A DNA stretch of 64,000 nucleotides from Rhizophagus irregularis (lineage: Eukaryota; Glomeromycota; Glomeromycetes; Glomerales; Glomeraceae). A program made the translations under genes and the position numbers. The stretch is taken from positions 620,001 to 684,000 of the forward strand of contig NC_089430.1 in assembly GCF_026210795.1 (NCBI RefSeq). The letters run 5' to 3'. The notes under the pieces were generated by a model. That model saw only the letters and a program-made list of their open reading frames with translations. It did no database searches and had not been told where the DNA came from. This document shows positions 4,427-56,136 of the stretch, one piece after another; position 1 is the stretch's first letter; every line of letters begins with the position of its first letter.

Positions 4427-5170
4427 ATTAAAAAAAAAAATCATTATTGTTATAACAATATCAAAATGATATCGTTTCGTTATATCAAAACGATATCATA
4501 TTAATATCGTATTTACTTTCTATTTTTCATTATTGTTATAACAATATCGAAATGATATCAATTTGATGTTTCATCAATATCGTTATGATGTCGATTAGAT
4601 AATTATAAAGTGATATCTTTACGATATCATATTGATATTGAATTAATGTTGGAACGATATCATATTAATATCGTATTTACTTTCTATTTTTCATTATTGT
4701 TATAACAATATTGAAATGATATCAATTTGATGTTTCGTCAATATCGTTATGATGTCGATTAGATAATTATAAAGTGATATCTTTACGATATCATATTGAT
4801 ATTGAATTAATGTTGGAACGATATCATATTAATATCGTATTTACTTTCTATTTTTCATTATTGTTATAACAATATCGAAATATTGATATGATATCGATTT
4901 GATGTTTCATCAATATTATTATGATGTTGATTAGATAATTATAAAGTGATATCTTTACGATATCATATTGATATTGAATTAATGTTGGAACGATATCATA
5001 TTAATATCGTATTTACTTCCCATTTTTCAAAAAATTCATTGTTGTTATAACAATATCGAAATGATATCGATCTGATATTTTTCAAATAAATATCTTTACG
5101 ATATTATTTTGATATATTGAATTAATATTGAAATGATATCATTGCAATATCATAATGATATCATTTGCAA
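4427..5170. repeat. 164-bp GATATC-rich tandem repeat
   Basis: Landmark TTCATTATTGTTATAACAAT recurs at about 4526, 4690 and 4854 (period 164) and near 5035 after a small insertion. Each monomer carries many ATATC/GATAT palindromic steps and a TTGTTATAACAA palindrome. No coding potential. Flanks back to 4090 and on to 5220 are similar but degenerate. Confidence 0.85.
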
Positions 5171-5410
5171 ATCGATATTGCCACGATATTTATTTAACAT
5201 CATTATTATATCAATTTGGTATTGTTTAAAAATTCAAGGTTTTTGTAAAGTATTCTTTTCCTTCTGTATTAATTTTATATTTTTCTAATTTCCATTGATC
5301 GGTCATCAGTGAAATCAAACCTACGATCTTACTATAATCAGGAATCCCAGTGATCTACCAATTAAATAAAGGTGATCAACTCTCAATTAGATTTATTTGA
5401 TTTCATTAAT

Positions 5411-6810
5411 TACTTCCTATCACGTGATCCATCTATTTATATTATATCATGTGACTTAATTATCACGTGACTTACTATTATTATTAACCTAGACCAGGGG
5501 GTTTAGGCTTCTTATCCTGGACCTGGGGGGTCCAGACCTCTTATCTTAGACCTTGTGGCACAGCTGATCATTATCAGCCTCATTTGTTTATTTACCACCA
5601 TTTTTTTTTTCACATGAAATAAACGCTATGCTCACTCTCTCTCTTACCTGCTCTTTCATTTGGTTTTTTTCTTTATATTATTTTTTTCTACACAAATTAT
5701 TTTTCTTTTTTTTTATAATAAATATTTTTTTATTACCATTATTTTCATAATAGTGTTTATTAGAACAATAAAAAATCTTTTTTATCAAAAATTTTAAATC
5801 TAATAAATACAAAGTGTTCTTTCTCTAATAATTACGCTTTAACACTTGCAATAGGTAAGTTTATTCTGGTTTCTTTGAGTTTTAGATTAAATTATTACGG
5901 TATGTATTGTTTGAAACTTTTTTCAACTAAAGTTTGTAATTTTACTAACATGTACGTGCTTTTTGTAGATTTTCATGGTATAATTTTAGCATTCTGATTA
6001 AATTAATTGGCTTTGGTTGGTATGTTGAAAATAAAATTGTTTGAATACTTGTATTTACAAAATTTCAATGGAAATTTGTGAAATATTTTCACTTTAATAA
6101 GTAATAATGGTATTTTTTTAATACAAGGTTATTTTGTAAGGAAAGAATAAATAATAATATAATAGATAATTCTTTACCTAGTTGTCAAATATTTGATAAA
6201 CACTTCTAATTTTTGGTTTAGTTTAATTTTTTGTCATAAAATATTCCAAGAAAAATGCTTATACTTCGTATCTCGTTGTGAAATATTGCTTTAATAAAAA
6301 AATTAATTTAAAAATCTTGAAAAATTTCTATAAATGTTACGCGCGTATTAGCGTATAAGTATTATAAAAAAATTTATGAAAATTTCTAAGATAAAAATGT
6401 TACACGCGTATTTATAATGTATATATTATAAAAAAAAATTTATGCTGATAAAAATATTACACGCATATTAATGTATATATTATAAAAAAATTTATGAAAA
6501 TTTTTCTAAGATGAATGTTATAGTTGTTACGCGTGTATACAGTAACATCGTGAAAAATTTTCTAAGATAAATGTTATGCAAAAATAAGTCTTTGTCCAAT
6601 GGATTTCAGTGGTTGATTAAACCAATCATATTTAAGGAGGGTCTAGGATAAGAAGCCTGAACCCCGGGGGTCTAGAATAAGAAACCTGAACCAGAGGTCT
6701 AGGATAAGGACGCTCTTTTTTATTATGTTACTTTTATTATGTGACTTTTATCACGTGATCCCATCATAAATATTATATCTTATCACATGACTTATAATCA
6801 TATGCCATTT
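5411..6810. repeat. CACGTG-rich segment bounded by inverted repeat clusters
   Basis: The left cluster (about 5490-5560) has three near copies of CTAGACC-GGGG-TTTAGGCTTCTTAT; the right cluster (about 6640-6715) has three copies of the reverse complement (TCTAGGATAAGAAGCCTGAACC). Outside both lie TCACGTGATCC / CATGTGACTTA motifs at 5421-5475 and 6750-6795. The inner part has a CT-rich block and a donor-like AATAGGTAAGT at 5849-5859, hinting at a transcribed unit, but no ORF. It could be a decayed transposon or solo LTR; I cannot decide. Confidence 0.45.
6335..6590. repeat. Degenerate ~75-bp tandem repeat with ACGCGTAT motif
   Basis: About four imperfect units, each with GTTAC(A/G)CGCGTATT, TATATTATAAAAAAATTTATG and TTTCTAAGAT(A/G)AATGTTA. 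No coding potential. It lies inside the inverted-repeat-bounded segment. Confidence 0.55.
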
Positions 6811-11574: not shown

Positions 11575-14500
11575 ATGCTCTTTTACAATTTATCTAAAGC
11601 AGAATTAAAGTCACATCAAAGAAAACATCGTAGAGGAAGAACAATCAACCAAAAAGAAGTTTACTGTATTCAGTGTTATCCAACAGATTCTATTCCAGCT
11701 GACAATATCCCTGACGGATTTGAGAAATTTTGGCTCTGGATTTCTATTCAGTACACAGCAAAACAATATACTGGAGCAACAGTAGCCGCTTTTAAAGTAT
11801 TAAAAACTGAATTCTTTATAACTACACAACTCAATACACTTGTCGGTATAACTACTAAGATCCTACAAAGTATAAAGTTTCGACAAATAAATACTTCTTT
11901 ATTAGAATTATCTTTTTATTTACATAAATTATTTGAATTAACAAACGGATTCAAGAGTTTACCAACCAATACTCAAGTGACCAACGCATATCAAATTTTT
12001 CATAATATACCAGTAAATAATAACACCAACATGAATGAAGGTCAGATGAAAGATCTTATGAAGTTAGTTTGGGGAACTGACCCAACTGATAATAATAACC
12101 CCAGAAATGTTGGAAACCTCTTGGAAAATACTTTGAATAATAATACAACTGCCATTACTACTGCGTTACAAAATAATCTTAATGCCCTCAATGCTCTTAC
12201 AACTGCCAACCAAAATCGTACAACATCTAAAGTTGTAGATGTTCCCTTTTTCTATGGGCGTGATGATGAAGATCCATACGAATGGTGTCGACTCTTTGAA
12301 GCTGCCTTTGCAGCTAATGGATGGCCAGATAATCGAAAAATTGCTTTAGCCGCTGGATTTCTTAAGGAAGCTGCCCGAGATTGGTATGAAGAGGATAGAG
12401 GAAATATCAACCAATGGCATGTAGATGACAATGCAAATAACTTTGATACCCGACTTATAAACTACTTTGCAACTGCTGCTCGAAGGAATCAGTGGACCAG
12501 AGAACTGCAAAATATTAAACAAGGAGACAATGAATCAGTAGAAAACTACTCCCGACATTTTAAGAAGTTGTTAAATAAAGCTACTCAAGGAGAAGCTTTA
12601 GCTGCAAGATACCAAATTAACTACTATATTAATGGTCTCAAGTCCTTTTTAGTTGGACAGGTAGTAATTGGAAATACTAATACTTTGGAAGCAACCATTA
12701 CCCGAGCCAAGTTAGTAGAATTAGGTGTAAATACTACTCTTTTAACTACAACACCTGTAACTACTAGTACTACAGAACCTATTCCAACTACTACTACTGT
12801 TAAACCAACTCCACAAGTGGATGAAATGGAAGCATTAACAAAACAAATGCAACAACTCGCTCTTAATTATGCAAATCTTTCATCAGTTTTAATGGTTCAA
12901 CAAAGCACTCCTCGAAATACTAGACCTAGACCTAATAATAATAACAATCAAAATCGTCAAAATGGTCAAGCCCCTACTCAGAATTCCTTTAATCCAAATA
13001 TCACTTGTTTCAGGTGTGGAAATGTAGGTCATATTTCCAGAAACTGCCAAATGGGAAGATATACCAATAATGGAAATATTAATAATAATAATAATAATCG
13101 CCCTCGCCAAAGAGCACCAGTTACACCTATTAATTATGCAGATGATGAAGCAGAAATTTACTATGATGAATATGAGAATGAATATGAGGAAGAATGGGAG
13201 GAAGAAGACGAATATGAAGCATATGTCACAACTCGTTCTAGATCTGTTCCATATGAGATATCCTCTCCTAGAGGAAAAAGAACAAGATTTTCAGAATCTC
13301 AAAAGGAAGACCAATTACGTACCCAACCTATTCCCCCAGTAACTCCTTCTACACCCATGGAAATGGATGCTACAGCAGAACCTTCTACAAAAAGAAAAGT
13401 AAGAACCAAAATGGTCCCTGCGCCTATTGAAAATGTCAATGAATTTGATATAGCTAAATATATTAGTGACCTTCCTTGTGGTCTATCTATCGGTCAAGCA
13501 ACAGCCCAACTTCCTGTTTACAGGAAAGGATTAATTCAAAGTATGAGGAGAAAGCGTGAAAAGATTGATAACAATAATTATATTGGAGAAAGTTACTATG
13601 GAGACTCCAACTCAGAAGAAGAAACTCCCACTACCGCTGCTAAATGTGAATTTCATATTAACCAACAACCAGTTATTGCAGTAATTGATAGTGGAGCTGC
13701 AGTTAGTATTATGACTACTGCCATGATGAAAACTTTGAAATTAACTATCGATGGACCTTCAGAATATGTAATTAAAACTGCCAATGGAACTAGAGTTAGG
13801 TCATTGGGAAAAATCCAAAACTTACCCCTAAAAGTCAGAAATTTAATTATTAAAACCAATGTTCAAATCATAGAATCAAGCGATAGTGTTTTTATTCTAG
13901 GAAATAACTGGATGAGAAAGGTAAATGCTGCTCTTGACTGGGACAAGAAGACACTAACTATCAGATACAATGGACGATCCACAACAGTCCCTGTGATTTT
14001 TACTCTCCCAAAACCTATTAAAATGAAGCAATCATTTGAGTATGATGACGAAGAAGAATATGAGTCTGAAGAGTTAGAAGAAGCTCAAATCTATATATCT
14101 GATTTTTCTGGTTATTCAACAGAAGAATCCCTTGAATTTAACCCATGGGAAAATGAAGTATCTCCTGCCCACCAAAATAATGAAGATGAAGAATTGGAAG
14201 AATCAAATCCTGCCATTTATTTAGCTCAAGCAGAAGTATATAGTGGAGAAAAAGTCAATCCAGACTTACATTTAGGACCGTTAGACTACCATCAACAAAG
14301 CCAATTTCAACAACTCTTGAGTGACTATGCAGATATTTGTGCTAAAAGCCAAACAGAAATTGGAAAAACAAATGTAATTAAGCACAAAATTATTACAAAA
14401 GATGCTACTCCCATCTTTCAACCACCCTACAGATGTAATCCTAAATATAGAGAGTTTTTACAAGGAGAAATCACAAGAATGGAAAGTCAAGGTCTTATAC

Positions 14501-16560
14501 GAAAATCAGCCAGCCCTTGGGCTTCACCTGTGGTAATTGTTGATAAAAAAGGAGGAGAAAAACGTTTATGCATAGACTATCGTAAATTGAATGCTGTCAC
14601 CAAAGCAGATGCTTACCCATTGCCTCGAATTGATGATATGCTTGAATCTTTTAGTAATGCAACATGGTTTACCACATTAGATTTAGCCAGTGGTTATTGG
14701 CAAGTAGCTATGGATTCAGCAGATGTTGAAAAGACTGCTTTTATTACTCCATTTGGACTATATGAATTTTTAGTAATGCCCTTTGGTTTAGCTTATGCGC
14801 CTGGAACTTTTCAATGACTAATGAATAGAATACTCCAGGAGTATCTAGGAAAGTTTGTGGCAGTATACTTAGATGATGTAATCATTTACTCAAAAGGAAC
14901 CTTAGAACAGCACTTGGATCACCTTAGACAAGTATTTGAAACTCTTAGACGAGCAAATTTGAAAATTAAACTTAAGAAATGTTACTTCTGTCTTGGAAAT
15001 ATTCATTTCCTAGGACATGTAGTCGGACGAGAAGGTATCCGGCCTGATCCAGAAAAAATTGAGAAAATTAAAACTTTTCCGGTTCCAACAAATCTAACAC
15101 AACTTCGCTCAGCATTAGGCTTATTCTCTTACTATCGAAAGTTCATCAAAGATTTCTCAAAAATAGCCAAACCAATGTTATTACTTTTAAAGAAGGAAAC
15201 TCCTTTTCATTGGACTGAGAAACAGCAAACTGCATTTGATTATTTGAAGGAAAGATTAGCTAAATCCCCGATCTTAACATACCCTGACTTTGAACAACCC
15301 TTCATTATTCATACAGACGCATCTGGTACTGGACTTGGTGCTGTGTTATTACAAATAAGAGAAGATGGAAAAGAACATGTAGTCGCTTATACCAGCAGAT
15401 CTTTAAATAAGGCTGAATGCAATTACCCTATAACCGACCAAGAATGTCTTGCGATAGTGTGGGCTATCAAACATTTCCAACACTACTTAGGATTAAAACC
15501 TTTCACAATTGTTACTGACCATTCTGCTCTAAAATGGTTAAAGACATCCAAAATCCCAAAAGGCCGCCGTGCGAGATGGGTCATGGACCTTCAACAGTAT
15601 GACTTTAATATTAAGCATCGAGCGGGAAAAGCGAACGCAAATGCAGATGCATTATCTAGAATGTTTGAAGAAGATAGCCAAACTCTTAGTTGTTTCATGA
15701 TTTCTATCGAAAAAGAAGGACAAATTAATGCAAATGAAAGTTCTACTCCAGTACACGAAGAGTACGATGCAGATTCAGAAGATGATTATACTGATAGACC
15801 TGCTCAAAGAGCTATTGATTTGTTAAATCGTTGTGATAATCTAATATATGATATGCAAAGCTACATTGAAGAACGATCTGAAAATAACTCTCCTATTAAT
15901 ATTGTTTCAGGAATTCGATATGATTTTGACAACCCCAATGGACCTCATCCAGAAGATTGTATTTGTAAAGTTTGTCAACCTCCTCCAGCCCGTTCACCAT
16001 CACCATATAGTTGTTGTAACGAAATTATTTGTCAGTGTAATGAAGATAACTATTCGATTGATACAGAAGAATATAATAATTCGTGGGAAAGACAAATTTA
16101 TGGAGATGCATTCTCTGATTATTCAGAAGAAAATCAGATTAATATTGAAGAACATATCGCCTGGACCATGTGTGGTATGAACCGTCAAGCTCTAGAAAAT
16201 ATGTATTTGGAAAATATAAAAATTAAACAAGTAATCGCCGGTCAACAAATCAATCATGGTGGAAGTCGATGTACTATGGAATGTGATACAGAAAATCATC
16301 ACGTGTATACATATTGTACGATGTGCAAGAAGAATCTATTTTATGGAACTACTATGCACGACTGTATCATTGGATTCACTTTAGGAAAAATTAGGCCAGA
16401 TATGAATCCCAAATTCCTTATTAATAATCAATGGTGGAAAGAACCTCAAGCAGTACAACTTGAAAATAATATCAATTATCTTAAATATATCGAACGATTA
16501 ATGAATGATTTACCAGTTTACAAAGCATCTTTGGAACCTTTCATTGCCAATTTGGACTAA
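11575..16560 (+). pseudogene. Gypsy gag-pol (Gag, protease, RT, RNase H) with an in-frame stop
   Basis: One frame runs 1080 codons to a TGA at 14815-14817 inside the RT and continues in the same frame to 16560. Gag has a retrotransposon-gag core around residues 225-340 (EWCRLFEAAF, ARDWYEE, ESVENYSRHFKKL) and a CCHC knuckle CFRCGNVGHISRNC at about 478. The protease has VIDSGAAVSIM (Asp about 705). The RT shows LCIDYRKLN, TLDLASGYWQV, FGLAYAPGTFQ and YLDD (14866-14877); RNase H shows HTDASGTGLGAVL. A Cys-rich spacer (CICKVC, CTMECD, YCTMC) precedes the integrase. The TGA falls where Gypsy RTs usually have a sense codon, so it is either a nonsense mutation or, less likely, read through. Confidence 0.88.
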
Positions 16561-17916
16561 AAGTCCACCTCTTTTACATATTATAATTAACAAAGTATCA
16601 AAGGGTGAAAGCGAAAGTGTCCGCATCGTGACGAGACAGCCTAAATTTTCAAAAATGGATATTGAACATTACAATAACATATATAATTATTTAAAATATA
16701 ATCAATTACCTTTTACATTAAATAACCAACAACAACAACAAATTCAAAAACAATCAGTATATTTTATTATCAAAAATAATTTCATTTATAAAAAGGATAA
16801 AAAGAGACAAAATAATTTACTACGAGTAATTAGAAGACATGAATTGGAACCAGTTCTTTTTATGTTCCACAACGATCCTACTGCTGTGCATTTTTCAGTT
16901 GACACAATGTTTGACAAAATTCAATCAAGATATTATTGGCCACAAATGTACAATGACATCAGAGCTTATGTCATGTCATGTGACTCTTGTCAACGAAGAG
17001 GAAAACAAAAGACAAAGTTACCTTTACATCCTATTCCAGTAGAAAGTCCTTTCATCAAATAGGAATAGATTTTGTAGGACCTTTACCTATAACTAAAAAT
17101 GGAAACAAATATATAATTACAGCAATGAATTATTTAACAAAATGGCCAGAAGCACGACCTGTAAAAGAAGCTACTGCAGAACAAGCTGCACTTTTTATTT
17201 ATGAAGAAATAATTTGTCGACATGGATGTCCAGCAAAAATATTATCAGACCAAGGAACTCATTTTAGAAATCAAATAATTGAAAAATTAATGGAAAAATT
17301 TCAGATAAAACATTTATTTTCAACACCATACCACCCTCAAACAAATGGACTTGTAGAAAGATTTAATCGTACTTTATCAGAATCTTTAGCAAAATTATCA
17401 ACAGATCATATTGATAATTGGGATAATTATATTGCACCAATTTTATTTGCTTATCGTACTACAAAACATTCGACTACAAAAATCGCACCTTTCTTTTTAT
17501 TATATGGACGAGATGCTAAACTACCAACTGATTCATTAGAAAATAATGGAAATCCAACTTTAATAAATCACATAGAAAATTTAGTTGACCAACTACCTCA
17601 AGAAATCGAAATAGCTAAGACAAATATTGAAATATCTCAACAAAAACAAAAAGAACGACATGATAGAAAATTACGTCATCAAATAAAATTTTCTATTGGA
17701 GATAAAGTCTTATATTATGACGCAGCAAAAGAAAAGCAATGGACTGGAAAACTAAATCCAAAATGGAAAGGACCATACTATATTCATCAAGTTGGAGAAA
17801 AAGGAGCGTACAAATTACGAACTATAGATGGAAAAGTCTTACGAACTCCTGTAAATGGAAGTTTATTAAAATTGTATCACGATCGACAAAATTGGGAACC
17901 AATAATTGTAGTATAA
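16505..17916 (+). pseudogene. Gypsy integrase, in two overlapping frames
   Basis: The frame 16505-17062 carries the HHCC zinc domain (HNDPTAVHF to CDSCQRR) and is +1 relative to pol, overlapping it by 56 nt. The catalytic core continues in frame 16987-17916 with GIDFVGPLP, ILSDQGTHF and NGLVERFNRTLSESL (D, D, E), then a GPY/F-like end (GDKVLYYDA, PKWKGPYYI). The switch back must occur near 17040-17060. Integrase joins element cDNA to the host chromosome. Whether the two frame changes are programmed shifts, removed introns or damage cannot be told. No chromodomain is apparent. Confidence 0.82.
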
Positions 17917-26453: not shown

Positions 26454-29400
26454 TTACATACCTTCATTAATAATGATACAATCTCTCAAACTTCCGCTTT
26501 CTTGAATTTCATTCACTTTTCCACTAGTAGAATGACTTAAATAATATACATGTGTATCTTCATTTTCAAGAATTTTATTCAATTCTTTACTAGTAAAACT
26601 AAGTAAGCGACTTGTATGGCATACTTGTGGATGAGATTCGGTAATTAAATTGTTACATTGAATTGATGCATTTATAAATTCCATAATATTGCTTTTTAAT
26701 TCTTCATTTATATCACTTATATCACTGATTTCAGGATTAAAAATCCAATTTTTAATGATATTTTTAACTTTTAATGCAGATGGCCTTTCTAATGGATCTT
26801 CATTCCAACATTTTTTCATTAAATCTATATAGCATTGTGGAGTATTTTCAATAATTTCAGGACGTTCACCTTTACAAATACTTAAACTAAGTTGAATATC
26901 ATCATATTTTCTGTCACTAAATGGTGGAACTCCAGATGTAAATTCCCACATAATCATAGAAAAACTATATATATCACTAGCTGGAGTATATGATTTACCT
27001 CTTAAAATTTCAGGTGCCATAAATGGTATAACACCATAAATACTATCTTTGTTTAAAAATGATTCCAAAGGTTGACATAATCCTAAATCACTAATATAAA
27101 TTTCATCATCTTTATTTTCATCATCTTTTAAATTATTTTTATACTTATTATGTTTTAAAATATTACCATCATGAAAATCACAATGAATAAGATTTTGTTC
27201 ATGTATTTTATGAAGTCCAGAAATAATTTTATATAATATATATAATCTCTGTTTCCAATTATTTTTAATTATTTTTGTTAAATTTTCTCTTAAATTGCCT
27301 TTATTTGCATAATCCATTATTGCCATATATTTCGAATCTGGATTTCTTGTAAATCCGTACAAGTTAATAATTTCAGTTGAATCTAAACAACTTTCATGAT
27401 ATTTCCACTATATAAAAAGTTAAAAGATTATTAAAATAAATTTATATAAATAAATTATAATTTAAGTTTAAAAAAAAAAATAAATAAAATGTTATAAATA
27501 ATATATATCTTACTTCTTTTAAAAATTTACTTAAATTTTCATTTAAATCTTTGGGACATTTAAGAACTACTTCCATATCACCGTTTTCTTTTAACCAAAT
27601 AGCTTTATAAACACTACCAAATCCTCCTTCATTAAGATATTCAACATCCTTAAATTTTTTATAAGGAATCCATTTTAATTTTTTTTCTAAAATAAAATTA
27701 TCCATAATTATATTTCCACTTTTTCCAAATCTAAATAATTTTAAATAATTAAAATTCATTAAAAAATTACGTTGAAATCGTTGAAATATTAAATTTTAAA
27801 AAAAATAACATTAACACTTACCCTAAAATTTAATAAGAAATTTTAATAAATGATAAATTTTAATTTATTTTTTACATAAATAGTAACGTAATAATAACCA
27901 AAATTTGTAACTTACTAACTAAAGTAAATAAACAAATATAAAGAATTTAGTTAATTAAAATTATTTGTGAATATTAAATACAGTAAATATACAAGGATAG
28001 CAATATCTAATAACTTACAACCTAAATTAAATTAGAATCTAGTTAGTTTAAATTATATGCAAATATCACATAAATATATAATAATAAAATTACTTGTTAC
28101 TTACAAAAATCTAAATAAATTATCAATCAATTTTTTTTAATTAATTTAAATATATATTGAATATAATAACAAAATTGAATAAATAATTTATTACAACTTA
28201 CGCTCTACATTATTAAATAACAAATTTAGTTTAAATTATATGTGAATATGATATAAATACGTAATAATAGAATTAATAAACAACTTACTTCCTATATTAC
28301 CAAATAATTTATAAATAAAGAATTTAGTATAAATTATATTTAAACATCAATTAATCATATAATGACAGAATTAAATTAAGTAACTTACGAACTATATTAT
28401 TAAATAAAGAATTTAGTTAGTTTAAATAATACATACATATGCATAACAATACAATCAAATAGAATAGTTTATATAACTTACAATCTAAAATTATTAACGA
28501 TTATTTTTAAATAAAGGATTTAATCAATAAATCATATACAGTCATCATATAAACAATGTAATAACATAATTTATAACTTACAATCTATAAATAAAGAATC
28601 AAATTAGTTTAAATTATATATAAACATTACATAAATATATAATAATAGGATTACTCACTTTCTATATTTTTGAATAATTTTTTAAACGAAAAATTTAGTT
28701 AATTTAAATTATATGTAAATATGAATTAAATAAATAAATTATAACTTACCATCTATTAAATGACGAATTTAATTTTTTTTTTTCGAATTATTTGTAAGTA
28801 TTTTATAAAGAAAATAACTACATTTAACCGTGAGGAAAATTAACCGGTGGGCAGAATTACACAATTCCAAGTCAACTCATTACCAGCATTAACATTAATT
28901 CCTTCATTTACCGGTTAATTTTCCCCCTGGCTAAGATCCTTATATAAATATGTGATAGACAAATTACCTTCTAGATTATTGATTTTTTTTTTTAAAAAAA
29001 AAAATTTAGATTAAATCATATGTAACAGGTATTATATAAATACATAGAATAAAATAACTTACTCTCTATATTATTAGCAATATTTAAATAAAGAATTCAG
29101 TTAATTTTAGTTAGTTTAAATAATATTATATAAATGTCAAAATAAAATTAAATAAATAACTTATAACTTACTAACTAAAATAAACAAATAGTATTTTTTC
29201 AAATAGAAAATATAGTTAAATTAAATACAAATGCTATACATGTAATAGAATAAATAAATAACTTCTAACTTACCAACTAAAACATGTAATAATTTGCGAA
29301 AAATTTAATTAGTTTATATTATATGAGAATGCAATAAAATATATAATGGTAGAATAAAATAAATAACTCACTCTCTAGTATATTATTAAATAGTTTTTCA

Positions 29401-32400
29401 AAGTAAAGAAGTCAGTTTAATTTATAGTATGTATTATAAATATACAAATACAAATAACTCACGTGCTGTATTATTAAAGAACAAATAATTTAGTTAGTTT
29501 AAATTATATAAATATCATATGTAATAATAGAAATAAATAACTTACAATCTAAATAAATTGTCAGATATTTTAATAAAGAATTTGTTAGTTAACATAAATT
29601 TAAATGTTATGCAAACGTATAATAATACTATCGATAAATAAGCAACTTACTCCCTATATTATTAAATATTTTTTTTTAAATAAAAAATTTAGTTAGTTTA
29701 AATTATGTATGTGTAAATATCAAATAATATATAATAATAAAATCAAATAAATAATTATTACTTACGCACTATATTACAATTTTTTAAATAAAAAGTTTTA
29801 AATATATTAGTGAATATTATATAATAATAGAATAAATAATTAACTTATAACTTACAAACTAATACAAGTAAATTGTTCAAATAATTTTTATAATAAAGAA
29901 TTTCGTTAATTTAAATTATTTGTAGATATATAAATAGAATTAAATAAATAACTTGTCACTTACGTGCTATATATTAAATATTTTTAGATAATTTTAGTTA
30001 GTTTAAGTTACGTATAAATTATGGTAAAAAATAAAAATAAAAATAACATACGTGCTTATTATAAAAATAATTTTTAATAAAAAATTTAGTTAATTTAAAT
30101 TCATATAAAAAGTATGCAATAATAGAATTTAATAAAGTAACTTACGATCTATATTATTATAATAAAGAATTTAGTTTAATTTAAATTATATATGATAGTA
30201 TTAATGGTATGATAATAGAATTAAATAAATGATTTATAACTTACCATCTAAAAGAAATTGCCAAATAATTTTTTAATAAAGAATTCAATTAATTCAAATT
30301 AAATATTTGTAAATAATAATAGAATTAAATAAATAACTCACTCTCTATTATTAAAAAATTGAAAAGTTAATTTAAATTATTTACAAGTATTATATAATTG
30401 CATTATAATGTAATAATTAAATAAATAATTTATAACTTACCAACTAAAATATTAATTTTTTAAATAAAGAATTTGATTATTTAACTGAAATTATACGTAA
30501 ATATTATTTAAATACATAACGATAGAATAACTTACTCTCTATATTATTAAAATAAAAATTTAGTTTATAATTAATTTAAATAATCACGTAAATATTTTAT
30601 ATAAATGTATAATGGTAAATTAAATAAATGACTTATAACTTACCAGCTATAATAAATTTCCAGATAATTTGTTAAATAAAGAATTTCGTTAGTTTAAAAT
30701 ATATAATATATGAATATATGTAAAATTTCATATAAATATAATAGAATTAAATTAATAACTTGCCAACTATAATAAAATTACAAAGTGATTATTTTAAATA
30801 AGAATTTCGTTAGCTTATATTATATACAAATATTCTATAATGAAATTAAATAACTTACTTCCTATATTATTAACCGTTTTTAGAAAGAATTTAGTTAGTT
30901 TAAAATATATGTAAATATCATATATCATAAAGTCCGCCCTTTTTGCACATAATGCTAGCCAAGAACATCGTAATGTAGCCCAAAATTGCGAACTTTATGA
31001 TAGATCTGTAATAATCAAATCAAATAAATAACTTACTCCCTGTATATTATTAAATGATTTTTAAATAAGGAATTTAGTTCAAATTATATAAATATTATAT
31101 AAATATGCAATAATAGGAATAAATAAATGACTTATAACTTACAATCTAAAATAAATTACCAAAGTTAGTTTAAATTATTGTAAATAGTGTATAAATATAT
31201 ATGTATGATAGAATTAAATAAATAACTTACCAACTATAATAAACCACCAAATAATTTTTAGACGGAAAATTTAGTTAATTTATTAAATTACAATATTAAA
31301 TATATATTTAAAATAATAAAATTAAATAAATAACACATATTTAACTTACGTCCTAAGAAAATTACCAATATTTATTTGTGATTAGTTTAATTATATTAGA
31401 TATCATATAAATAAGTAGTAATAAAATAAAATAAACAACTCACTTGCTAAATCATTAAACCGTTTTTTAAAAAATATTATAAATTTTTGTAATAAGGGCA
31501 GCGTAATATATTACGTAACGCCCGTAATCCAACAACAAATTTCGGGTGATATCAGCGTAAGATAGGTAACCAATTAAAATATAATATAATTATATATCAC
31601 ATGATTTTATTATGTGTCCAATTCTCGTAATAAATGTCAATGTTCCTAATAAAATTAAATAAATGACATATAACTTACATGCTATATTATTTTTTAATAA
31701 TAATAGTTAGTTCAAATTATATATGAAGCGTAATAATGGAATTAAATAAATAACTATAACTTACTATCTAAAATAAATTACCAATTAATTTTTTTTTAAA
31801 TAAAAAAAAATTCAATTAGTTTAAATAATATGTATATATCATATATAAATATACAATTGATAGAATTAAATAACTTGAAATAAACTCACTTTCTACATTA
31901 TTAATAATTTTTTAAATAAAAAAATTTAGTTAATTTAAATCACATGTAAATATTTCATAAATATGTAATGGTAGAATTAAATAAATAACTTACCAACTAA
32001 AAAAAATTATGTAAAATAAAAAAATTAATTAGTTAAAGTTATATGTGAATATTATATAAATATATGATAATAAAATTAAATAAATAATTTATTACGTACC
32101 AACTATATAAATAAATTACCAAATAATTTTTTTTTTAAATTAAATATTTTTTTTTCTTTTAGTATATTAAAATATTTAATAAATAAAATTAAATAAATAA
32201 CTTACATGCTATATTATTAAAATAAAGAAATAATTAGCTTAAATAATGTCGTTAAATATGTAATAATGGAATTAAATAAATGACTTATTACTTACACGCT
32301 ATATTATTAAATATTTTTTATATAAAGAATTTAATTAGTTTAAATATTATATAAATATTTTATAATAATATTAAATAAATAAGTAGAATAACTCACTCTC

Positions 32401-33203
32401 TATATTATTAAAATAAAGAATTTAGTTAGTTTAAATTTATATGTAAATATCTTAATAAACATGTACTAATAGAATTAAATAAATAACTTGCAACTTACCA
32501 ACTAAAATAAATTACCAATAAATTTTTCATTTTTTTCTAGTTAGTTTAAGTTATATACAACTTAAAGACATAGATAACATATAACTTACACCCTGTAATA
32601 TTATTATTAATTAGATAAAAACATTATTACAAAAATACATGATGTAAAAAAAATTAATTATATTACTTACAATCTAATTATTTAAATAAAGAATAAAATG
32701 ATTAGTTTTGAAATATGCGCAAAAATTAAATAAATAATAAAATTAAATAACTTACCATCTATAACATCATTAATGAATGAATAATTATTTAAACAAAGAA
32801 TTTTGTTATTTGAATATTATGCAAAAAATATGGTAAAAAAATAAATAACTGATAATTACTTACTAACTAAAGTATTATTAATCATGATTTAGTTATTTAG
32901 AATATGATAAAGATAAGTAATTTTCAATTATTATTCGAATTATATTAACTTACGATCTAATTATTTAAATGATTATTAAATTAGAAATAATTCAAATTTA
33001 TATGTGAATATTACGTAAGGTAAAATAATATGAAAATTGTTTAAAAAATTATTTCAATATTTTATTTACCTTCAGATTCCTTGGTACTGGTACTTGAAAC
33101 TAGTTTTGGTATTTATTACAAATTCGTTTCAAAATTTAGAATATTCTAATTTAAATTAAATATTCATGCTATTTCTTTTACCTTCATCGTTACCATTAGC
33201 CAT
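26454..33203 (-). CDS. Tyrosine-kinase-like protein kinase; 54-exon gene with 3-nt microexons
   Basis: Exons: 33203-33182 (ATG, 22 nt), 33099-33070 (30 nt), 48 exons of 3 nt, one of 6 nt (28110-28105), one of 1 nt (27822), 27730-27514 and 27407-26454. The total is 1374 nt: 457 residues plus stop, in frame throughout. The kinase domain has G-loop LNEGGFGSV (about 100-108), Lys125 in VVLK, HCDFHDGNIL (Asp217, HCD in place of HRD), DLG (Asp247 region) and MAPE (about 270-273), as in Rhizophagus kinases of this group. The pre-domain FGKSGNIIMDNFI...KWIPYKKF also fits that family. The last intron (106 nt) is phase 0. Probably a cytoplasmic Ser/Thr or dual-specificity signalling kinase. The kinase part is firm; the microexon part rests on splice motifs and frame. 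Confidence 0.82.
28828..28930. mobile_element. Small palindromic insertion in a kinase intron
   Basis: Arms GAGGAAAATTAACCGGT (28832-28848) and ACCGGTTAATTTTCC (28910-28924) are inverted around about 60 bp. The host intron (28971-28753 side) is about 215 nt rather than about 95, so this is an added MITE-like piece. No ORF. Confidence 0.6.
30923..31002. mobile_element. 80-bp MITE-like insertion in a kinase intron
   Basis: Ends TATCATAAAGT and ACTTTATGATA are perfect inverted repeats; the inside holds GCCCTTTTTGC and no ORF. The host intron is 175 nt against about 95 for its neighbours. Confidence 0.65.
31487..31650. mobile_element. Insertion with GCGTAATATATTACG palindrome in a kinase intron
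   Basis: The intron between the microexons at 31679 and 31444 is 232 nt; the excess is a GC-richer block with GCAGCGTAATATATTACGTA and CGCCC on both sides. The exact ends are unclear. Confidence 0.45.
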
Positions 33204-34199
33204 TATAATAATTATGTTTGAAATTCTTCCTAAAGAGACGGTGTATAATATATTCTTTATTAAATACCTTTATTAATGTGGGTATATATACAGGATAACC
33301 ATACAGAATGCAAAATGCAGACGCCAAGTAGGTAATCGGTTTCAGAACAATAAGGACGTATTGTATGCATTATGTGCAATTATGTCGATCACAAGCCACG
33401 ACAAACAAGTTTTTTTTTTCTTAAAAATGATGATCAAAATATTCTTTGAAGAAAAGCCGATTAAAAAAAAATTTACTATGAAACTACATACTGTTATTTT
33501 TTATTCGCAAAAGTAACGGTAACACACATTTCAGATTTGTCAACCATCTTAACTGCAAAAATTTCATGATAATCTGAACCGAGTGAGGCGAAAGTCCAGA
33601 TTACGTTGTAATATAGGTTTAGTTAATATCAATAATTTAACGTAAGAAATAAACTTTTTAAAGGTAATTTTCTTGAGTTTGCTTTAGATGAGAAGAAAAT
33701 ATAACTTCTTTACTATAATTATTAAATATTAAAAGATCAATCAAGCGATAACGTTGATCACTTTCTAAGAAAATTTCGAATGATAAACGCTATTGTACAT
33801 ATATATTTTATTTTGGCCGCATATTGATTCTTTAAAAGAAGACGGTATCCGTTAAAGTTCGTCACGTTTACTTTCTCAGGGTCTTTTTTATTATCAGTGT
33901 CACAAAGAAAAGGAATAATTGAAAGGATTTTTTAAAACATATAGAAAATCATTGTTTAAATTTGAATGTTAAAAATTTCTTCAATGTGATAGTCCTAAGA
34001 ATTAACTATGGAAAAATTTTGCATAATAATTCAAAATCAAATAGTCTTGTTAATTTAGTTATGTTAATATGAAATCAATTTAATAAATTGATAAAGTGAA
34101 CAAATTAATTTATGACTTATGTAATATGTAATTGTTATTTGTTGCTGACTTAGCCAAGTTTTTTAAAAAACTTGTTGTCACCTGATCACCACGTTGAGG
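33204..34199. other. Upstream flank of kinase gene; no gene seen
   Basis: About 1 kb with no convincing ORF. Immediately 5' of the kinase ATG (minus strand) is an AT-rich leader with ATATATTATACACC near 33240-33253 that might be a TATA-type element. A palindrome CAAGTTTTTTAAAAAACTTG lies at 34156-34175. Confidence 0.4.
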
Positions 34200-34915
34200 T
34201 GCAGCAACATTGATCAGGGGGGAAGGGGAAAGCGAAAGGAAAAAGGGAAACGGAAGGGAAAGGTAGGAAAGGGTAAACGAAGGGAAGGGTAAGACGAAGG
34301 GGAAAGGTAAGACGAAGGGGAAAGGGTAAAACGAAGGGGAAAGGGTAAGACGAAGGGAAAGGGTAAGACGAAGAGAAAGGGTAAGACGAAGAGAAAGGGT
34401 AAGACGAAAGGGAAGGATAAAACGAAGGGGAAAGGGTAAAACGAAGGGGAAGGGTAAAACGAAGTGGAAAGGGTAAAACGAAGGGGAAGGGTAAAACGAA
34501 GTGGAAAGGGTAAAACGAAGGGGAAGGGTAAAACGAAGGGGAAGGGTAAAACGAAGGGGAAGGGTAATACGAAGGGGAAAGGGTAAGACGAAGACGAAGG
34601 GGAAAGGGTAAGACGAAGGGAAAGGGTAAAACGAAGGGGAAAGGGTAAAACGAAGGGGAAAGGGTAAAACGAAGGGGAAAGGGTAAGACGAAGGGGAAAG
34701 GGTAAACGAAGGGACGAAGGGGAGGGTAAGACGAAGGGGAAAGGGTAAGACGAAGGGAAAGGGTAAGACGAAAGGGAAGGATAAAACGAAGGGGAAAGGG
34801 TAAGACGAAGGGGAAAAGGTAAGACGAAGGGAAAGGGTAAGACGAAAGGGAAGGATAAAACGAAGGGGAAAGGGTAAAACGAAGGGGAAAGGGTAACGAA
34901 GGGGAAAGAGAAAGC
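34200..34915. repeat. Purine-only minisatellite (GGGGAAAGGGTAARACGAA)
   Basis: About 35 irregular copies of an 18-21 bp unit, GGGGAAAGGGTAA(A/G)ACGAA, with G-run length variation. All three minus-strand frames stay open for over 250 codons (F/P/L/R/S-rich) because the unit has no stop on that strand; simultaneous openness argues against any of them being a protein gene. It is markedly G-rich against its surroundings. Confidence 0.85.
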
Positions 34916-36329
34916 GAGAGAAGGGAAGGGGAAAGAACAAGGAAATAACACACCACCTACACACAAACCCACACGCAAACTTACAAAACTTACACACAAC
35001 AACCCACATACCTATAGGAAGACGTAAAGATAAGAGGCCTAAGAGTATAGACAGAGAGAAAACAGACCTAAAAAAAGAAGATAAAGAAGACCTAAAAAAA
35101 AAAAAAGACAAAGAAAAAAAAAGGATAAAGAAAATCGACATATTTATATTATTATTCAAATTGTGAGTAATGATAAAACTCGCATCATGTATTACATGAG
35201 TAATTTTTTCGCGTAAGTAATATGACCGATATGAGTAATTACATATAATCAAAAAAGGAAAATGCAGGGGTGAAAAGGATGACGTCGTGGGTGGAAGGGA
35301 GGAATATTACATGGGTTAACTATCAACTCCTTCGCTATGTTCCGGACAATAAAAGAGTGAATCTATTCCTAAGATTTGATATTACTCACCCCCTAAATTA
35401 AATTTTTGATTGGTCAATTTTTTAATCAGCTAATTTTCATTTTGCTGCAACGCAACTTTTCGCAAAAATTTTCACAAAGTATAAAAATTTCCAATATAAC
35501 TTTTTTCGCAAAAAACATTTTGTTAAAAATTTTGCAACGTAGTATTTTTATCTTACATAAACAATGATACATAATAATTTAAAAATTTTTATATAAAGTT
35601 AAGGAAGCACCGTTAAATTCATTATGTATTTTAACAAAACTACGCCTGCCAAGCGACAATGACAAATAAAATAAATAAAATAAAAGAATATAAAAAACAA
35701 TCAGAAATAAAGAAAACGAAAAAGAAATAAAAAAAAACAAAAAAAAAACGGACGAAAAGGATATAAAAAGAATAATGGGAGAGGAAATTAGGAAAAACAA
35801 GTGTAAAGAATGAAACCAATAAAGTAAGGGATGAAAAAAATGAAATCAAGATGTCAAGAACGAAATGTAAAGAGCAAACCCATGATGAAGATAAAGAACA
35901 AAACGCATAATGCATGATGAGTTAAAAGAACGAAATAACAAAGCCCACGAAATTAAAGAACAAAATCCGTAATGTTGAAGAATAAAACCCGTGAAGTTAA
36001 AGAGCAGTATAAAGTAAATGAATTTAATTAGTAAAGAACAGAAATTAGGAAACAAAACAAAGAAAAAGAAAAATAGAAACGTACGAGAAGAACATAAGAC
36101 CTAAAAAAAGAGAAAAGGAATTAAAAAACAAAAAACAAAAAAAAGGCAATCAATACCAAAAGAAAAGAAAAAAAAACCAGAATGAAGTTAAAGAACGAGA
36201 TCAGTGAAGAAAGCTAAAGAACGAAACAAGAACAAAACCTGCAAAGTTAAGTGCGGCATAAAGTAAAGGAATGTAGTTAGTAAGGAACAAATTAAGAAAC
36301 AAGATAAAAAAGAGAAAAGGAGAACGTAC
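34916..36329. repeat. Purine-rich plus strand with short degenerate repeats
   Basis: The plus strand is mostly A and G for about 1.4 kb. From about 35840 to 36250 a unit like GTTAAAGAACRAAAYC recurs about ten times. On the minus strand there are splice-like signals, e.g. TACTAAC followed by TTTGCAG ending at 36239. Open frames at 35579-36055 are compositional. No gene could be supported. Confidence 0.5.
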
Positions 36330-49247: not shown

Positions 49248-51880
49248 TTATATGCCTTCATAAACACCATGTATATTATCAAATTCCGTTATTTTAACCC
49301 CTTTAGCTTTAATACTATTCAATAACATTGATTCCTCATCATCCCATTGTCTATTCAAATTAATCAAACCAAGAATTTTTAAACTATTGTTACTTCTTTC
49401 AATATAATTTAAAACAACTTTAAGAAAGTCTAACTTAATAACGTTATTCAAACTAATTATTTCAAACTTATTATGACAATTTTTTAAAAATTCCTTGAAT
49501 TGGAAATTCTTATCACGATTATAGTAATAATAAATAGAAATTTTACTAATATTAATAGGTATATTATTTGATAAATTTATAAAAAATTCAGCATCATATG
49601 TAAAAATATAAAAATTTAATATTCTTGTTCTTAAATTTCTAAAAAATGGTAACACTAAACGATTAAAACTTAAATAAGTTCTTATTTCTAAAAAAATAAG
49701 ATTTGAACAATACATTGATATATTTTCAATAGAAAGAATTGTCGGATTTCTAATTAATAATCTTTGTAATGATGCACCTAAATATTTGATCATTAATGAT
49801 GTGACATTAGCATCCCAACTAATGCGTACAAATGATAATTCCTTGAGCTTAAATTGAGCAAATTTTAAAATCTCACATTGATCTAATGATATACCTTCAC
49901 AATTATCAAATCTTAAATACTTCAAATTATATAAATTATTAAAACTTTTTAAACTAGCATTACTAAAGTTAGAATTTGTGAATTCAATATTAACTAAAGA
50001 ATTCTTTTGAAATTCTAAAGACAAAAGAATATTATTTAATAAAGAATGACAATCCAATATCTTAAATTTTTTAAGTTTGTTTTGCTCTTGAATAATTGTA
50101 CAAATCTTTTCAAAAGTAGTAATATCGACAAAATTTTTATAAAGATTAATTATTAATTCTCGCAAATTATTCGCCATATTACTTAAAAATTCTTGTTCAA
50201 TTTTATTATTACTAGTTGTGCCATTTAAATTTAATGATAACGAATTTAATTTTGTTAAATTTGATGTGAAATTTTTAACATTGAAATTTTTAAACGCTTC
50301 TCCATAAAATAAATATGTCGAAATATCTAATTGTTTGATGTTTTTACTTTGACGTAAAATTGATTGATGAAATATTGGAATAATATCATATACTTTATTA
50401 TAAGGAATCAATAAACCTGAACAACATCTTACAAGACAACTATCAATTACGTTATCTATTGTAACATAATCATAGTTTTCCAAATATTTCGGATATTCAA
50501 ATAATGGTTTGCATTCTTCATCCAAATTAATATTATTAATTTGGTTTAGTTCTAGTTTATTTTTCAATTGTAAAATTTCTTCTTTATTAAAACATAAAAT
50601 TAAGGTCGTGATTATCGAGTACTTTTCTTCAGTTATATTTATAAAAGGATTTGCATAAAGTAAAGGAATCGTTGATTTACACCAAAATCGATTAACTAAT
50701 AAACAATTAAATAAAGTTGAATGATTATTTTTAAGATGTTGTAAAATGTAAAAAATACAATCATCTGTTAAATAAGGTAAAGTCATCTTGAAAATTTTAG
50801 GAAGGAAAGAAAGTTTTTTACGGAGTATCGGAGTAAATAAGTCATTATAAGCCTAATTTTGGATATCACACGGTTGTACATAAATTTTGTAACATTCAGG
50901 TAAACCCTGTAATAGGTGACACACTGACACTACCGTAATGATTTTCTCCAAATTTTCTTCGTTATGTATTTATATCAAGTTGAACTTCGGTTGTACAATA
51001 ATTTGTAGTAATAATTGATATTCAGTAAATGATAAAATCATATATGGCTATAGCCGCTTTGTCCGATTAACATGTTGGCCCGGAGAATAAAACATAGCAG
51101 ACATGAAAAATAGTTCGTAAAAACAGGTCGATCTTTTTTGATGAGGCCTTGTCAATATTTATACTGTACGTCTGTCAAATTTAATACTGCCCATATATCA
51201 ATTATTTTTTTTGTATAGAATTAAACGGCAATCCCGATTCTTAGATAAATTATAAATGAATTTTTTTGATATAAGTAGCCTCTTGTAACGATAGAAAAAA
51301 TGTGTCCTGTAATTAATAAAATTGATATTTTTACCGACTGTTCTCTAAGCTATCTTATTGTACCATTCGTATATAATTTGAATTTCCAACTTAAATTTAT
51401 CATTTCCTTATTGTTAACCGATTTGTGTATATTTTCGTTGGGGATTGGTCGCTACAACAGGCGCGCCGAGAGAGACAGTATCAACAGATAATTCGAAGAA
51501 TTTTAATACAACTCGTTAATTTTATCCCTCTATAACTTTTCGTTTATCGCCCGTTTCTAGTGGTAACAATATATAGGGTTTGGATAATTCTTTTATTGCT
51601 AATATTATCATAATTATTTAATATATCTCCACCGTATAATATGTAATTTAATTGGATAAAAATAGATTATATTTTAATGACTTGAGATCTTTGGTGTCGA
51701 TCAATAAGTCCGATAAATAATTAACATAAAAATATATTGAAATTAAAATATCGATTATAGAATCAACTATTTTTTTTTTTAAATTTTTACAAATAAGTCA
51801 GTCGAGTCCATTATTTAACTATAAATCATCAATACACAGATGATTTACTGTATGTGATTTAATAATATATGATCACCTGA
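48781..51880. repeat. Segmental duplication copy A (F-box gene 1)
   Basis: Matches 54145-57312 in the same orientation over the 3' flank, the complete gene and more than 1 kb of 5' flank (e.g. GGAGTATCGGAGTAAATAAG, CACACGGTTGTACATAAATT, AACTTCGGTT). Small indels are frequent and the coding part is better conserved than the flanks. Confidence 0.85.
49248..50786 (-). CDS. F-box / leucine-rich repeat protein 1
   Basis: 512 residues, single exon. The N-terminus MTLPYLTDDCIFYILQHLKN...LFNCLLVNRFWCKSTIPLLY is an F-box (about residues 1-45), the part that binds Skp1 in SCF ubiquitin ligases. The rest consists of irregular Leu/Asn-rich helices and strands with repeated NLKYLRF, NLIFLEIR and KLKELSF segments, as in degenerate leucine-rich repeats that choose substrates. 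Start chosen at the only upstream Met before the F-box; the upstream frame is closed. F-box families are hugely expanded in Rhizophagus. Paralogue of 54607-56136. Substrate unknown; probably cytoplasmic or nuclear. Confidence 0.85.
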   Translation of the reverse strand: MTLPYLTDDCIFYILQHLKNNHSTLFNCLLVNRFWCKSTIPLLYANPFINITEEKYSIITTLILCFNKEEILQLKNKLELNQINNINLDEECKPLFEYPKYLENYDYVTIDNVIDSCLVRCCSGLLIPYNKVYDIIPIFHQSILRQSKNIKQLDISTYLFYGEAFKNFNVKNFTSNLTKLNSLSLNLNGTTSNNKIEQEFLSNMANNLRELIINLYKNFVDITTFEKICTIIQEQNKLKKFKILDCHSLLNNILLSLEFQKNSLVNIEFTNSNFSNASLKSFNNLYNLKYLRFDNCEGISLDQCEILKFAQFKLKELSFVRISWDANVTSLMIKYLGASLQRLLIRNPTILSIENISMYCSNLIFLEIRTYLSFNRLVLPFFRNLRTRILNFYIFTYDAEFFINLSNNIPINISKISIYYYYNRDKNFQFKEFLKNCHNKFEIISLNNVIKLDFLKVVLNYIERSNNSLKILGLINLNRQWDDEESMLLNSIKAKGVKITEFDNIHGVYEGI

Positions 51881-54606: not shown

Positions 54607-56136
54607 TTATATGCCTTTATAAACACCATATAAATTATTAAATTCCATTATTTTAATCCCTTTAGCTTTAATACTATTAAATAACATTAATTCCTCATCA
54701 TTCAAATTTTTATTCAATTTCTTCATACCAAGAATTTTTAAACTATTATCACTTCTTTCAATATAATTTAAAACAAGTTTAAGAGAGTTTAACTCAATAA
54801 TACAATTTAAATTAATTACTTCAAACTTATTATGACAATTATCTAAAAATTCCCTAAATCTGAAATACTTATTAGAATTATGATAATAAATAGAAATTTT
54901 ACTAATATTAATAGGGATATTATTTGATAAATTTACAAGAAATTTATTATTATATGTAATAACACTAAGATTTAATATTCTTGTTCTTAAATTTCTAAAA
55001 AATGGTAACGCTGAACAATTAAAATGGGTATCAATTCTTATTTTTAAAAAAATAAGATTTGAACAATACATTGATATATTTTCAATAGAAGAAATTGTCG
55101 GATTTCTAATTAATAATCTTTTTAATGATGCACCTAAATATTTGATCATTAATGATGTGACATTAGCATCCCAACTATTTCGTGCAAATGATATTTCCTT
55201 GAGCTTAAATGGAACAAAATTTAAAATCTCACATTGATCTAATAATATACCTTTACAAGTTACAAATCTCAAATACTTCAAATTATATAAATTATTGAAA
55301 CTTTTTAAATTAGCATTACTAAAATTAGTATTTATAAATTCAATATTAACTAAAGAATTCTTTTGAATTTCTAAAGATAAAAGAATATTATTTAATAAAG
55401 AATAACAATTCGTTATCTTAAATCTTTTAAGTTTGTTTTGCTCTCGAATAATTGTACAAATCTTTTCAAAAGTAGTAATTTCGACAAAATTATTGGAAAA
55501 ATCAATTATTAATTCTTGTAAATTATTTGCTATATTGCTTAAAAATTCTTGTTCAAATTTATTACTAATTCCATCAAAATCTAATGATAATGAATTTAAT
55601 TTTGTTAAATTTGATGTGAAATTTTTAACATTAAAATTTTTAAACGTTTCACTATAAAATAAAGATGACGAAATATCTAATTTTTTGATGTTTTTACTTT
55701 GACGTAAAATTGATTGATGAAATATTGGAATACTATCATATATTTTAATATTAGAAATTGATAAACCTGAACAATATTTTATAAAACAACTATCAATTAC
55801 GTAATCTATTTTAAAATAATCATAGTTTTCCAAATATTTCAGATATTCAAATAATGGTTTGTATTCTTCATCCAAATTAATATTATTAATCTGGTTTATT
55901 TCTAGTTGATTCTTCAATTGTAAAATTTCTTCTTTATTAAAACAAAAAATTAAGGTCGTGATTATCGAGTAATTTTCTTCAGTTATATTTATAAAAGGAT
56001 TTGCATAAAGTAAAGGAATCGTTGATTTACACCAAAATCTATTAACTAATAAACAATTAAATAAAATTGAACGATTATTTTTAAGATGTTGTAAAATGTA
56101 AAAAATACAATCATCTGTTAAATAAGGTAAAGTCAT
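54607..56136 (-). CDS. F-box / leucine-rich repeat protein 2
   Basis: 509 residues, same architecture as the gene at 49248. The F-box MTLPYLTDDCIFYILQHLKN is identical for the first 20 residues; the body is conserved (NPFINITEE, CSNLIFLKIR, SDNSLKILGM) with scattered substitutions. Both end YGVYKGI / HGVYEGI. Intact frames in both copies imply that both are kept as genes or that the duplication is recent. Expected role: substrate adaptor of an SCF ubiquitin ligase. The 5' flank has gained a MITE about 160 bp upstream of the ATG, which may alter its regulation. Confidence 0.85.
   Translation of the reverse strand: MTLPYLTDDCIFYILQHLKNNRSILFNCLLVNRFWCKSTIPLLYANPFINITEENYSIITTLIFCFNKEEILQLKNQLEINQINNINLDEEYKPLFEYLKYLENYDYFKIDYVIDSCFIKYCSGLSISNIKIYDSIPIFHQSILRQSKNIKKLDISSSLFYSETFKNFNVKNFTSNLTKLNSLSLDFDGISNKFEQEFLSNIANNLQELIIDFSNNFVEITTFEKICTIIREQNKLKRFKITNCYSLLNNILLSLEIQKNSLVNIEFINTNFSNANLKSFNNLYNLKYLRFVTCKGILLDQCEILNFVPFKLKEISFARNSWDANVTSLMIKYLGASLKRLLIRNPTISSIENISMYCSNLIFLKIRIDTHFNCSALPFFRNLRTRILNLSVITYNNKFLVNLSNNIPINISKISIYYHNSNKYFRFREFLDNCHNKFEVINLNCIIELNSLKLVLNYIERSDNSLKILGMKKLNKNLNDEELMLFNSIKAKGIKIMEFNNLYGVYKGI

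Follow-up and report, generated by a model that had tools for sequence, protein, structure and literature searches.

Consecutive one-codon exons as the probable coding units of a hypervariable kinase segment in Rhizophagus irregularis

Anatomy of the kinase gene in the window

The window analysed here, a stretch of 64,000 nucleotides (nt), corresponds to C2:620001-684000 of the 146.7-Mb, 32-contig genome of Rhizophagus irregularis DAOM197198. It carries, on the minus strand, a kinase gene in which two small 5' exons are followed by a long array of micro-exons and then by the kinase exons (coordinates without a contig name are those of the window; all elements of this gene are on the minus strand). 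Exon 1 (33182-33203) reads ATG GCT AAT GGT AAC GAT GAA G (MANGNDE), and exon 2 (33070-33099) reads VSSTSTKESE; both end in phase 1, the latter with a G. The micro-exon array (27731-33069) consists of 48 three-nt exons, one 6-nt exon, and one 1-nt exon, with their own introns of mostly 75-125 nt. The 48 triplets start between 32956 and 27918, the 6-nt exon (ATTTTT, 28105-28110) sits in one of the four wide gaps, and the 1-nt exon (G, 27822) restores the frame of the kinase. Kinase exon A (27514-27730; FGKSGN...WIPYKKF...LSKFLKE) and kinase exon B (26454-27407; WKYHESCL...IIINEGM, followed by a stop codon) complete the gene.

All of the elements of the original prediction, in which 48 AG-NNN-donor triplets separate two ordinary 5' exons from an ordinary kinase exon, were located. 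The spacing of the triplets, predicted as approximately 75-120 nt, was measured as 77-125 nt, except for four gaps of 178, 183, 218, and 235 nt. Two of these wide gaps contain inverted-repeat inserts in array introns, at 28824-28934 (imperfect 25-nt arms, 84% complementary) and 30920-31005 (24-nt arms, 83% complementary), and a third long array intron (31446-31681) contains no inverted repeat of 12 nt or longer. The donors of the triplets are GTAAGT (37), GTGAGT (7), and GTACGT, GTATGT, GCAAGT, and GTAATT (one each). Within this 5.3-kb stretch, which is rich in A and T, the pattern AG-N3-GTRAGT occurs 44 times on the minus strand, as compared to 0.056 expected (first-order Markov model, maximum of 1 in 500), and does not occur on the plus strand.

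When the micro-exons are decoded in order, their 151 nt, together with the final G of exon 2 and the initial A of exon A, give 51 codons that are free of stops, as had been predicted, reading DLNDWFETSF...YFRKHFCFR and continuing in frame into FGKSGN. The peptide of the array is non-repetitive, and the decoded N-terminus, MANGNDEVSSTSTKESE, is hydrophilic by eye; an example peptide of the predicted spliced product is IAEIENDPPLLR. Phase 1 requires exon 2 to start at TTTCAAG (33099), and the same VSS start is seen in some of the paralogues.

Coding frame, exon length, and ends of the paralogous arrays

A single gene had originally been reported; the observation is confirmed, but the gene is a member of a large family. 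A search with the first kinase exon gave at least 150 copies (150 of 3448 candidates scored; 151 matches, most from residue 1), and a search with the decoded protein was scored for the best 92 of 5810 candidates. Among ten loci cut out with the decoded protein, that of the window included, nine carried, in the flank and on the strand of the kinase, a run of at least five triplets. The flank of the remaining locus, L014, had no triplet run, but a fuller stretch of the same place, L026, has an array. The analyses below cover 22 loci, namely the window, L019 (picked because an array had already been seen there), and 20 further kinase paralogues, with 27 arrays and 809 triplets in total; 20 of the 22 are the best-ranked, i.e., closest, paralogues.

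If the triplets are spliced together, the codons straddle neighbouring triplets, and the avoidance of stops is expected only for neighbours that are joined in the correct phase and order. In the required frame, junction stops were found at 2 of 782 positions, as compared to a mean of 29.4 in within-array shuffles of the triplets (lowest 16 in 2000 trials; z of approximately -6.7), and of the 30 junction codons with an expectation of four or more, the three stop codons were the most depleted. Conversely, stops were not depleted when one triplet was skipped (25 of 755, as compared to 28.3 in the shuffles), when the order of the triplets was reversed (33 and 29.1, respectively), or in the third frame (112 and 88.9, respectively). 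For the window array alone, the result was weaker than in the family test (no stops as compared to 3.2 in the shuffles, P = 0.013). Five triplets are themselves stops in phase 0, and three of these lie in arrays that are fully open in phase 1 (L026, L031, and L033). A frame-blind splice parse, which favoured 3-nt exons and was trained on these same arrays, yielded a total length of 1 modulo 3 in 17 of 21 loci; in the remaining four (L027, L031, L037, and L041), unusual additional exons were called or the 1-nt exon was missed. In the same parse, 18 of 21 loci were free of in-frame stops, the exceptions being L029, L035, and L041. These results give strong, if indirect, support to the view that, as originally proposed for the window, the triplets behave as phase-1 coding exons joined in order to the kinase, as seen from the frame-specific stop avoidance over the 27 arrays.

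The lengths of the array exons are restricted as well. Two successive 3-nt exons between GTAAGT donors were found 2944 times genome-wide, with 22 in a reversed-pattern control, whereas the same pattern with a first exon of 4 nt or 5 nt was found three times (control 0) and twice (control 8), respectively. The exons at the kinase loci comprised 503 of 3 nt, eight of 6 nt, one of 4 nt, two of 2 nt, and 44 scored as 1 nt, most of which we attribute to AGA triplets, where an AG is present within the exon itself. Nearly all of the array exons are therefore of sizes that keep the frame, and they fall within the size class of microexons (up to 30 nt). The array introns have the ends of spliceosomal introns (GTAAGT or GTRAGT donors and AG acceptors) and a branch-like motif: the donor was GTAAGT in 736 of 809 cases under a preset donor list, and CTRAY was present in 540 of 762 introns, as compared to 182 when shuffled, the introns being related and hence not independent. 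The donor of exon 2 was not GTAAGT in any of the seven loci in which exon 2 was recognised.

The ends of the arrays are also constant. The 1-nt exon lies 66-93 nt upstream of the kinase exon in all 21 loci in which a kinase exon could be recognised, and is also present in L040, i.e., in 22 of 22 loci; among the 21, its base is A in 19, T in L027, and G in the window. For L040 (C17:4226817-4236816), the array and the 1-nt exon are followed by seemingly unrelated sequence, and the WIPY kinase motif was not found after the array within the stretch tested. Kinase exon A begins at the same base relative to WIPY in all 21 loci parsed. In 14 of the 21, exon A has no methionine (Met) upstream of WIPY, and therefore the internal start that is annotated for the gene in the window is not open to these loci. 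In 7 of 21 loci, the window included, the sequence upstream of the array contained a recognisable exon 2 end of the form KES[KE]-G in phase 1, and a search with this pattern matched nothing in the other 14.

Public gene models differ from this structure. The public protein of the window locus, P0003 (OCT59_011583, Rhizophagus irregularis), joins KE to WKYH as in the decoded gene, i.e., exon A to exon B, but has a different end; in precomputed domain annotation, PF07714 and/or PF00069 are assigned to P0003 and to the other homologues listed. For P0013, P0018, P0024, and P0039, the N-termini are rich in G, I, L, and M and end in LSK-FGKS or LSK-SGKS. Since GTAA|GT always has a GT 4 nt further on, a gene finder that is incapable of a 1-nt exon would be pushed into phase 0. 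P0018 and P0039 are from R. diaphanus, which suggests that arrays also occur there. All 17 of the public gene models examined omit the array or appear to misread it, and the N-termini of many kinases in this model mycorrhizal fungus are probably wrong in public models.

Variation and turnover of the arrays

Across the paralogues, the arrays range from 8 to 76 micro-exons, and the decoded segments often start with L-x-D-W-F/W/Y and finish with F-E. For the first four array introns, the best match in other genes was at the same index in 11, 9, 9, and 9 genes, respectively, with many others one off, and the last two showed this agreement in 19 and 17 of 21 genes, respectively. The best matches of the middle introns between genes showed no positional order. 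For the 12 closest kinase pairs among 15 genes (exon A 86-91% identical), the identity of the array peptides was 0.14-0.26, as compared to 0.20 when shuffled. These results indicate that the ends of the arrays are conserved, and that the middles differ even between the closest kinases.

Within a gene, the similarity of middle introns was 0.60 at a distance of one unit and 0.50 beyond 20 units, as compared to 0.52 between genes. In L038, eight pairs of units that lie 11 apart have identical introns and triplets, and the decoded peptide repeats 11 residues; smaller duplications were found in L027, L030, and L034. The change of the codons was followed in 447 best-partner unit pairs, in which control 3-mers were compared with the coding triplets. 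At 97.5% intron identity, 93% of the control 3-mers were identical, whereas only 62% of the coding triplets were, and at 92.4% intron identity, the values were 83% and 35%, respectively. Conservation was highest at the middle base of the triplet, the third codon position in phase 1 (0.88, as compared to 0.71 and 0.73), as expected under selection for residue change in phase 1; base composition contributes to this conservation, with random pairs agreeing at 0.45 for the middle base and 0.29 and 0.25 for the others. The arrays thus seem to have grown by the duplication of whole units of intron and codon, with one codon gained per unit, followed by fast codon change. A derivation of the middle units from the first units was not supported, because the first introns match each other and not the middle introns.

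Scaling the 2944 genome-wide hits by the 407 hits per 809 triplets in the 22 loci, and, in a second calculation, the surplus of single hits over the control (9493 and 5234, respectively) by 741 per 809 triplets, suggests that the genome holds some 4,600-5,900 one-codon exons, as a rough estimate.

Arrays of 3-nt units were also observed at C1:2291971-2294423, C1:4548054-4552629, and C2:19061-23445, with no kinase exon nearby among the matches listed; these arrays on C1 (2292 kb and 4548 kb) and C2 (19 kb) may belong to unlisted kinase members or to other genes.

For a gene of another type, an array was found at C1:1723.6-1731.5 kb (L020/L021, C1:1721500-1733499), where 67 triplets lie between introns that are unrelated to those of the kinase arrays. 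In phase 2, this array has no stops, as compared to a shuffle mean of 1.6 (P = 0.045, uncorrected for three frames), and its frame reads MDERLWEELEESLKGLLPPTPPPPPLPGRLPLGTKPSPPPLPGRLPIKKIINERYERPRRRHAIKG, with the start codon itself split by an intron. Three extra triplets with unusual splice sites lie in the gaps of the array, and with these, 70 in total, the frame is still open. Downstream of the array come a long coiled coil and then an AIG1-type GTPase domain at C1:1733655. The introns of this array recur at C17:3901350-3902841, with five exact matches to CAATTAAATTACCAGNNNGTRAGT. The one-codon-exon architecture therefore appears to occur with at least two intron families.

Proposed mechanism, alternatives, and context

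Judging from the sequence, the array is very likely a hypervariable segment of the R. irregularis kinase that is encoded by consecutive one-codon exons. Each unit would consist of a full spliceosomal intron of approximately 97 nt (GTAAGT donor, usually a CTRAY branch-like motif, and AG acceptor) and 3 nt in phase 1. All of the units would be spliced in order, with the introns removed successively, probably by intron definition, and the terminal 1-nt exon would shift the frame to that of the kinase. Under intron definition, the intron alone would carry the signals, and the triplet would therefore be free to be almost any codon. Because the unit equals one codon, its tandem duplication or loss via recombination between similar introns would never break the frame, and nearly all array exons would be of 3 nt because the duplication of a unit adds one residue without a frameshift. 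At the two ends of the array, four or five units (often LxDWF) and two units, respectively, would stay fixed, and the middle would lengthen, shorten, and swap residues quickly. Each paralogous kinase would thereby obtain its own segment of approximately 7 to 80 residues, and this organisation would presumably be shared by all of the at least 150 family members. A variable segment beside a kinase plausibly recognises partners or non-self. More tentatively, and with rather less than even confidence, codon-exon arrays may form a dedicated diversity generator of thousands of 3-nt exons, which would serve the kinases and at least one AIG1-type GTPase as a recognition repertoire (self/non-self or host).

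Several observations weigh against this explanation. The triplet searches used a preset donor list, which biases the donor strength upward, and although all 22 loci examined carry an array, they cover only 22 of the at least 150 family loci. The arrays of L029 and L035 have one in-frame stop each, and the window array is open in phase 0 as well. A second, weaker site, TTAG-T-GTAAAT, is present nearer to exon A in 7 of 21 loci, and the use of both sites would break the frame. In the public models P0001-P0003 (P0001 being the R. diaphanus relative of P0003), the protein starts from a Met inside exon A. Phase 0 seems to be the frame in which P0013, P0018, P0024, and P0039 read arrays, under a mapping that we infer. 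Only two candidates were obtained when public proteins were searched with the decoded N-terminus, and neither reached E of 1 or lower. Even the third codon position changes faster than the introns, and the codon change may not be explained entirely by point mutation and selection. In addition, none of the 44 window introns has its best partner in its own array (the pool outside being larger), and no recent unit duplication was seen there, so the window array is old or has been homogenised differently.

Alternatively, the triplets could be whole codons in phase 0, with a 5-nt exon AGTAA at the exit of the array, the donor of which is shifted by 4 nt. This would account for the LSK ends of P0013, P0018, P0024, and P0039, which follow runs rich in G, I, L, and M, the residues that the commonest triplets spell in phase 0, and for the window array being without a phase-0 stop. 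However, TGA triplets occur in L026, L031, and L033, all open in phase 1, junction stops are avoided solely in phase 1, it is at the third codon position of that phase that the triplets change least, and exon 2 ends in phase 1 in all seven loci where it is recognised. We regard this alternative as quite improbable; for the family as a whole, the junction stops and the codon change lead us to reject it, which could not be concluded from the window alone. It is more improbable still that the array is a non-coding minisatellite, i.e., repeats in tandem around a conserved AGNNNGTAAGT core that lie between genes or within a long 5' intron, with the kinase starting at an internal Met. The starts of P0001-P0003, the tandem relationship of the introns, and the AT-richness of the array would fit, whereas a minisatellite would not be expected to show stop avoidance that is specific to frame and adjacency, a near-absence of 4-nt and 5-nt exon versions, a conserved 1-nt exon, or an exon A that is conserved upstream of the Met and lacks any Met before WIPY in 14 of 21 loci. 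Moreover, joining exon 2 directly to exon A in the window runs into a stop.

The original prediction explained the array by a wave of intron gain, in which introns were inserted codon by codon and saturated approximately 150 nt of existing coding sequence. The non-repetitive window peptide and the window introns without a best partner in their own array agree with this, and intron gain may explain the conserved ends, where the first and the last two introns tend to correspond by position across the paralogues. However, the 8 to 76 micro-exons, the block duplications, and the similarity that falls with distance all speak against a wave of insertions, and no uninterrupted homologue of either decoded peptide was seen in what were weak searches (best 92 of 5810 candidates; two candidates in one search). 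We therefore consider intron gain as the general explanation unlikely. A combinatorial alternative splicing of symmetrical 3-nt exons, in which each messenger RNA takes a different subset, is also rather doubtful, if marginally less so. Any 3-nt exon could be skipped in frame, and skipping creates stops rarely (25 of 755); however, the stops created by skipping are not avoided (25 as compared to 28.3), in a test that is weak because such stops are rare anyway.

If the one-codon exons are spliced in order, as we propose, tens of consecutive 3-nt exons and a final 1-nt exon would have to be recognised reliably, which is not readily compatible with exon-definition models. Minimal exon size and splicing order would then be directly testable within one transcript. 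The arrangement strains current ideas on the minimal size of a working exon, and it would provide a simple route to an evolving hypervariable region, in which the gain or loss of a unit is incapable of causing a frameshift.

According to the original prediction, 3-nt exons are very rare and no gene is known to have tens of them in a row, and nothing comparable was found in the open-licence literature searched, outside which lie most subscription papers and all preprints; in the same literature, no mention of microexons in R. irregularis was found. Drosophila homothorax reportedly has a 3-nt microexon; the exon size is the same, whereas that exon is single and alternatively spliced and those here form long runs. 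The micro-exon genes of schistosomes and tapeworms have runs of frame-preserving micro-exons, as seen here, but each of their exons is longer than one codon. The exons of aphid bicycle genes are likewise larger than one codon; unlike in these, the exons here consist of one codon between introns that are homologous and in part duplicated in tandem, and the array leads into a kinase domain. Schistosome-type micro-exon genes and bicycle genes encode secreted proteins with a signal peptide. Introners are single intron families scattered one by one over many unrelated genes; the arrays likewise involve one intron sequence family, but the copies found are in tandem, one codon apart.

Aphid bicycle and megacycle genes are divergent and contain numerous small exons, of which almost all internal ones share one phase, and megacycle genes contain more than 100 microexons (PMC9168663). 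Single 1-nt exons have been described for Arabidopsis APC11 (PMC4674806) and for Fusarium CYP621A, by its own description the second example (PMC12940212). As in these cases, the 1-nt exon here is needed for the frame; unlike there, where one tiny exon occurs in one gene or orthologue group, it closes a 3-nt array, in 22 of 22 loci. For R. irregularis itself, the SP7-like effectors are described, in the available text, as having tandem repeats with one conserved intron before the first repeat (PMC11333574); these are repeat-built proteins of the same fungus, and not, as far as that text goes, built from one-codon exons as in the kinase arrays. No one-codon-exon arrays appear in the available text of the SP7 and AGL papers (PMC11333574, PMC8786786). 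The assembly paper, as far as available, reports 2,533 kinases and Nanopore RNA sequencing (PMC10234402), and the word microexon is absent from its main text.

Elsewhere in the window, open reading frames that resemble, by eye, the gag-pol of a long terminal repeat retrotransposon lie at 11575-17916 on the plus strand. Two paralogous open reading frames on the minus strand (49248-50786 and 54607-56136; 512 and 509 residues, respectively) start with MTLPYLTDDCIFYILQHLKNN and are F-box/leucine-rich-like by eye. At 34110-35252 lies a low-complexity repeat (PFPFVLPFPLRFTL-like), in which several minus-strand frames are open and both the GC skew and the AT skew are strong.

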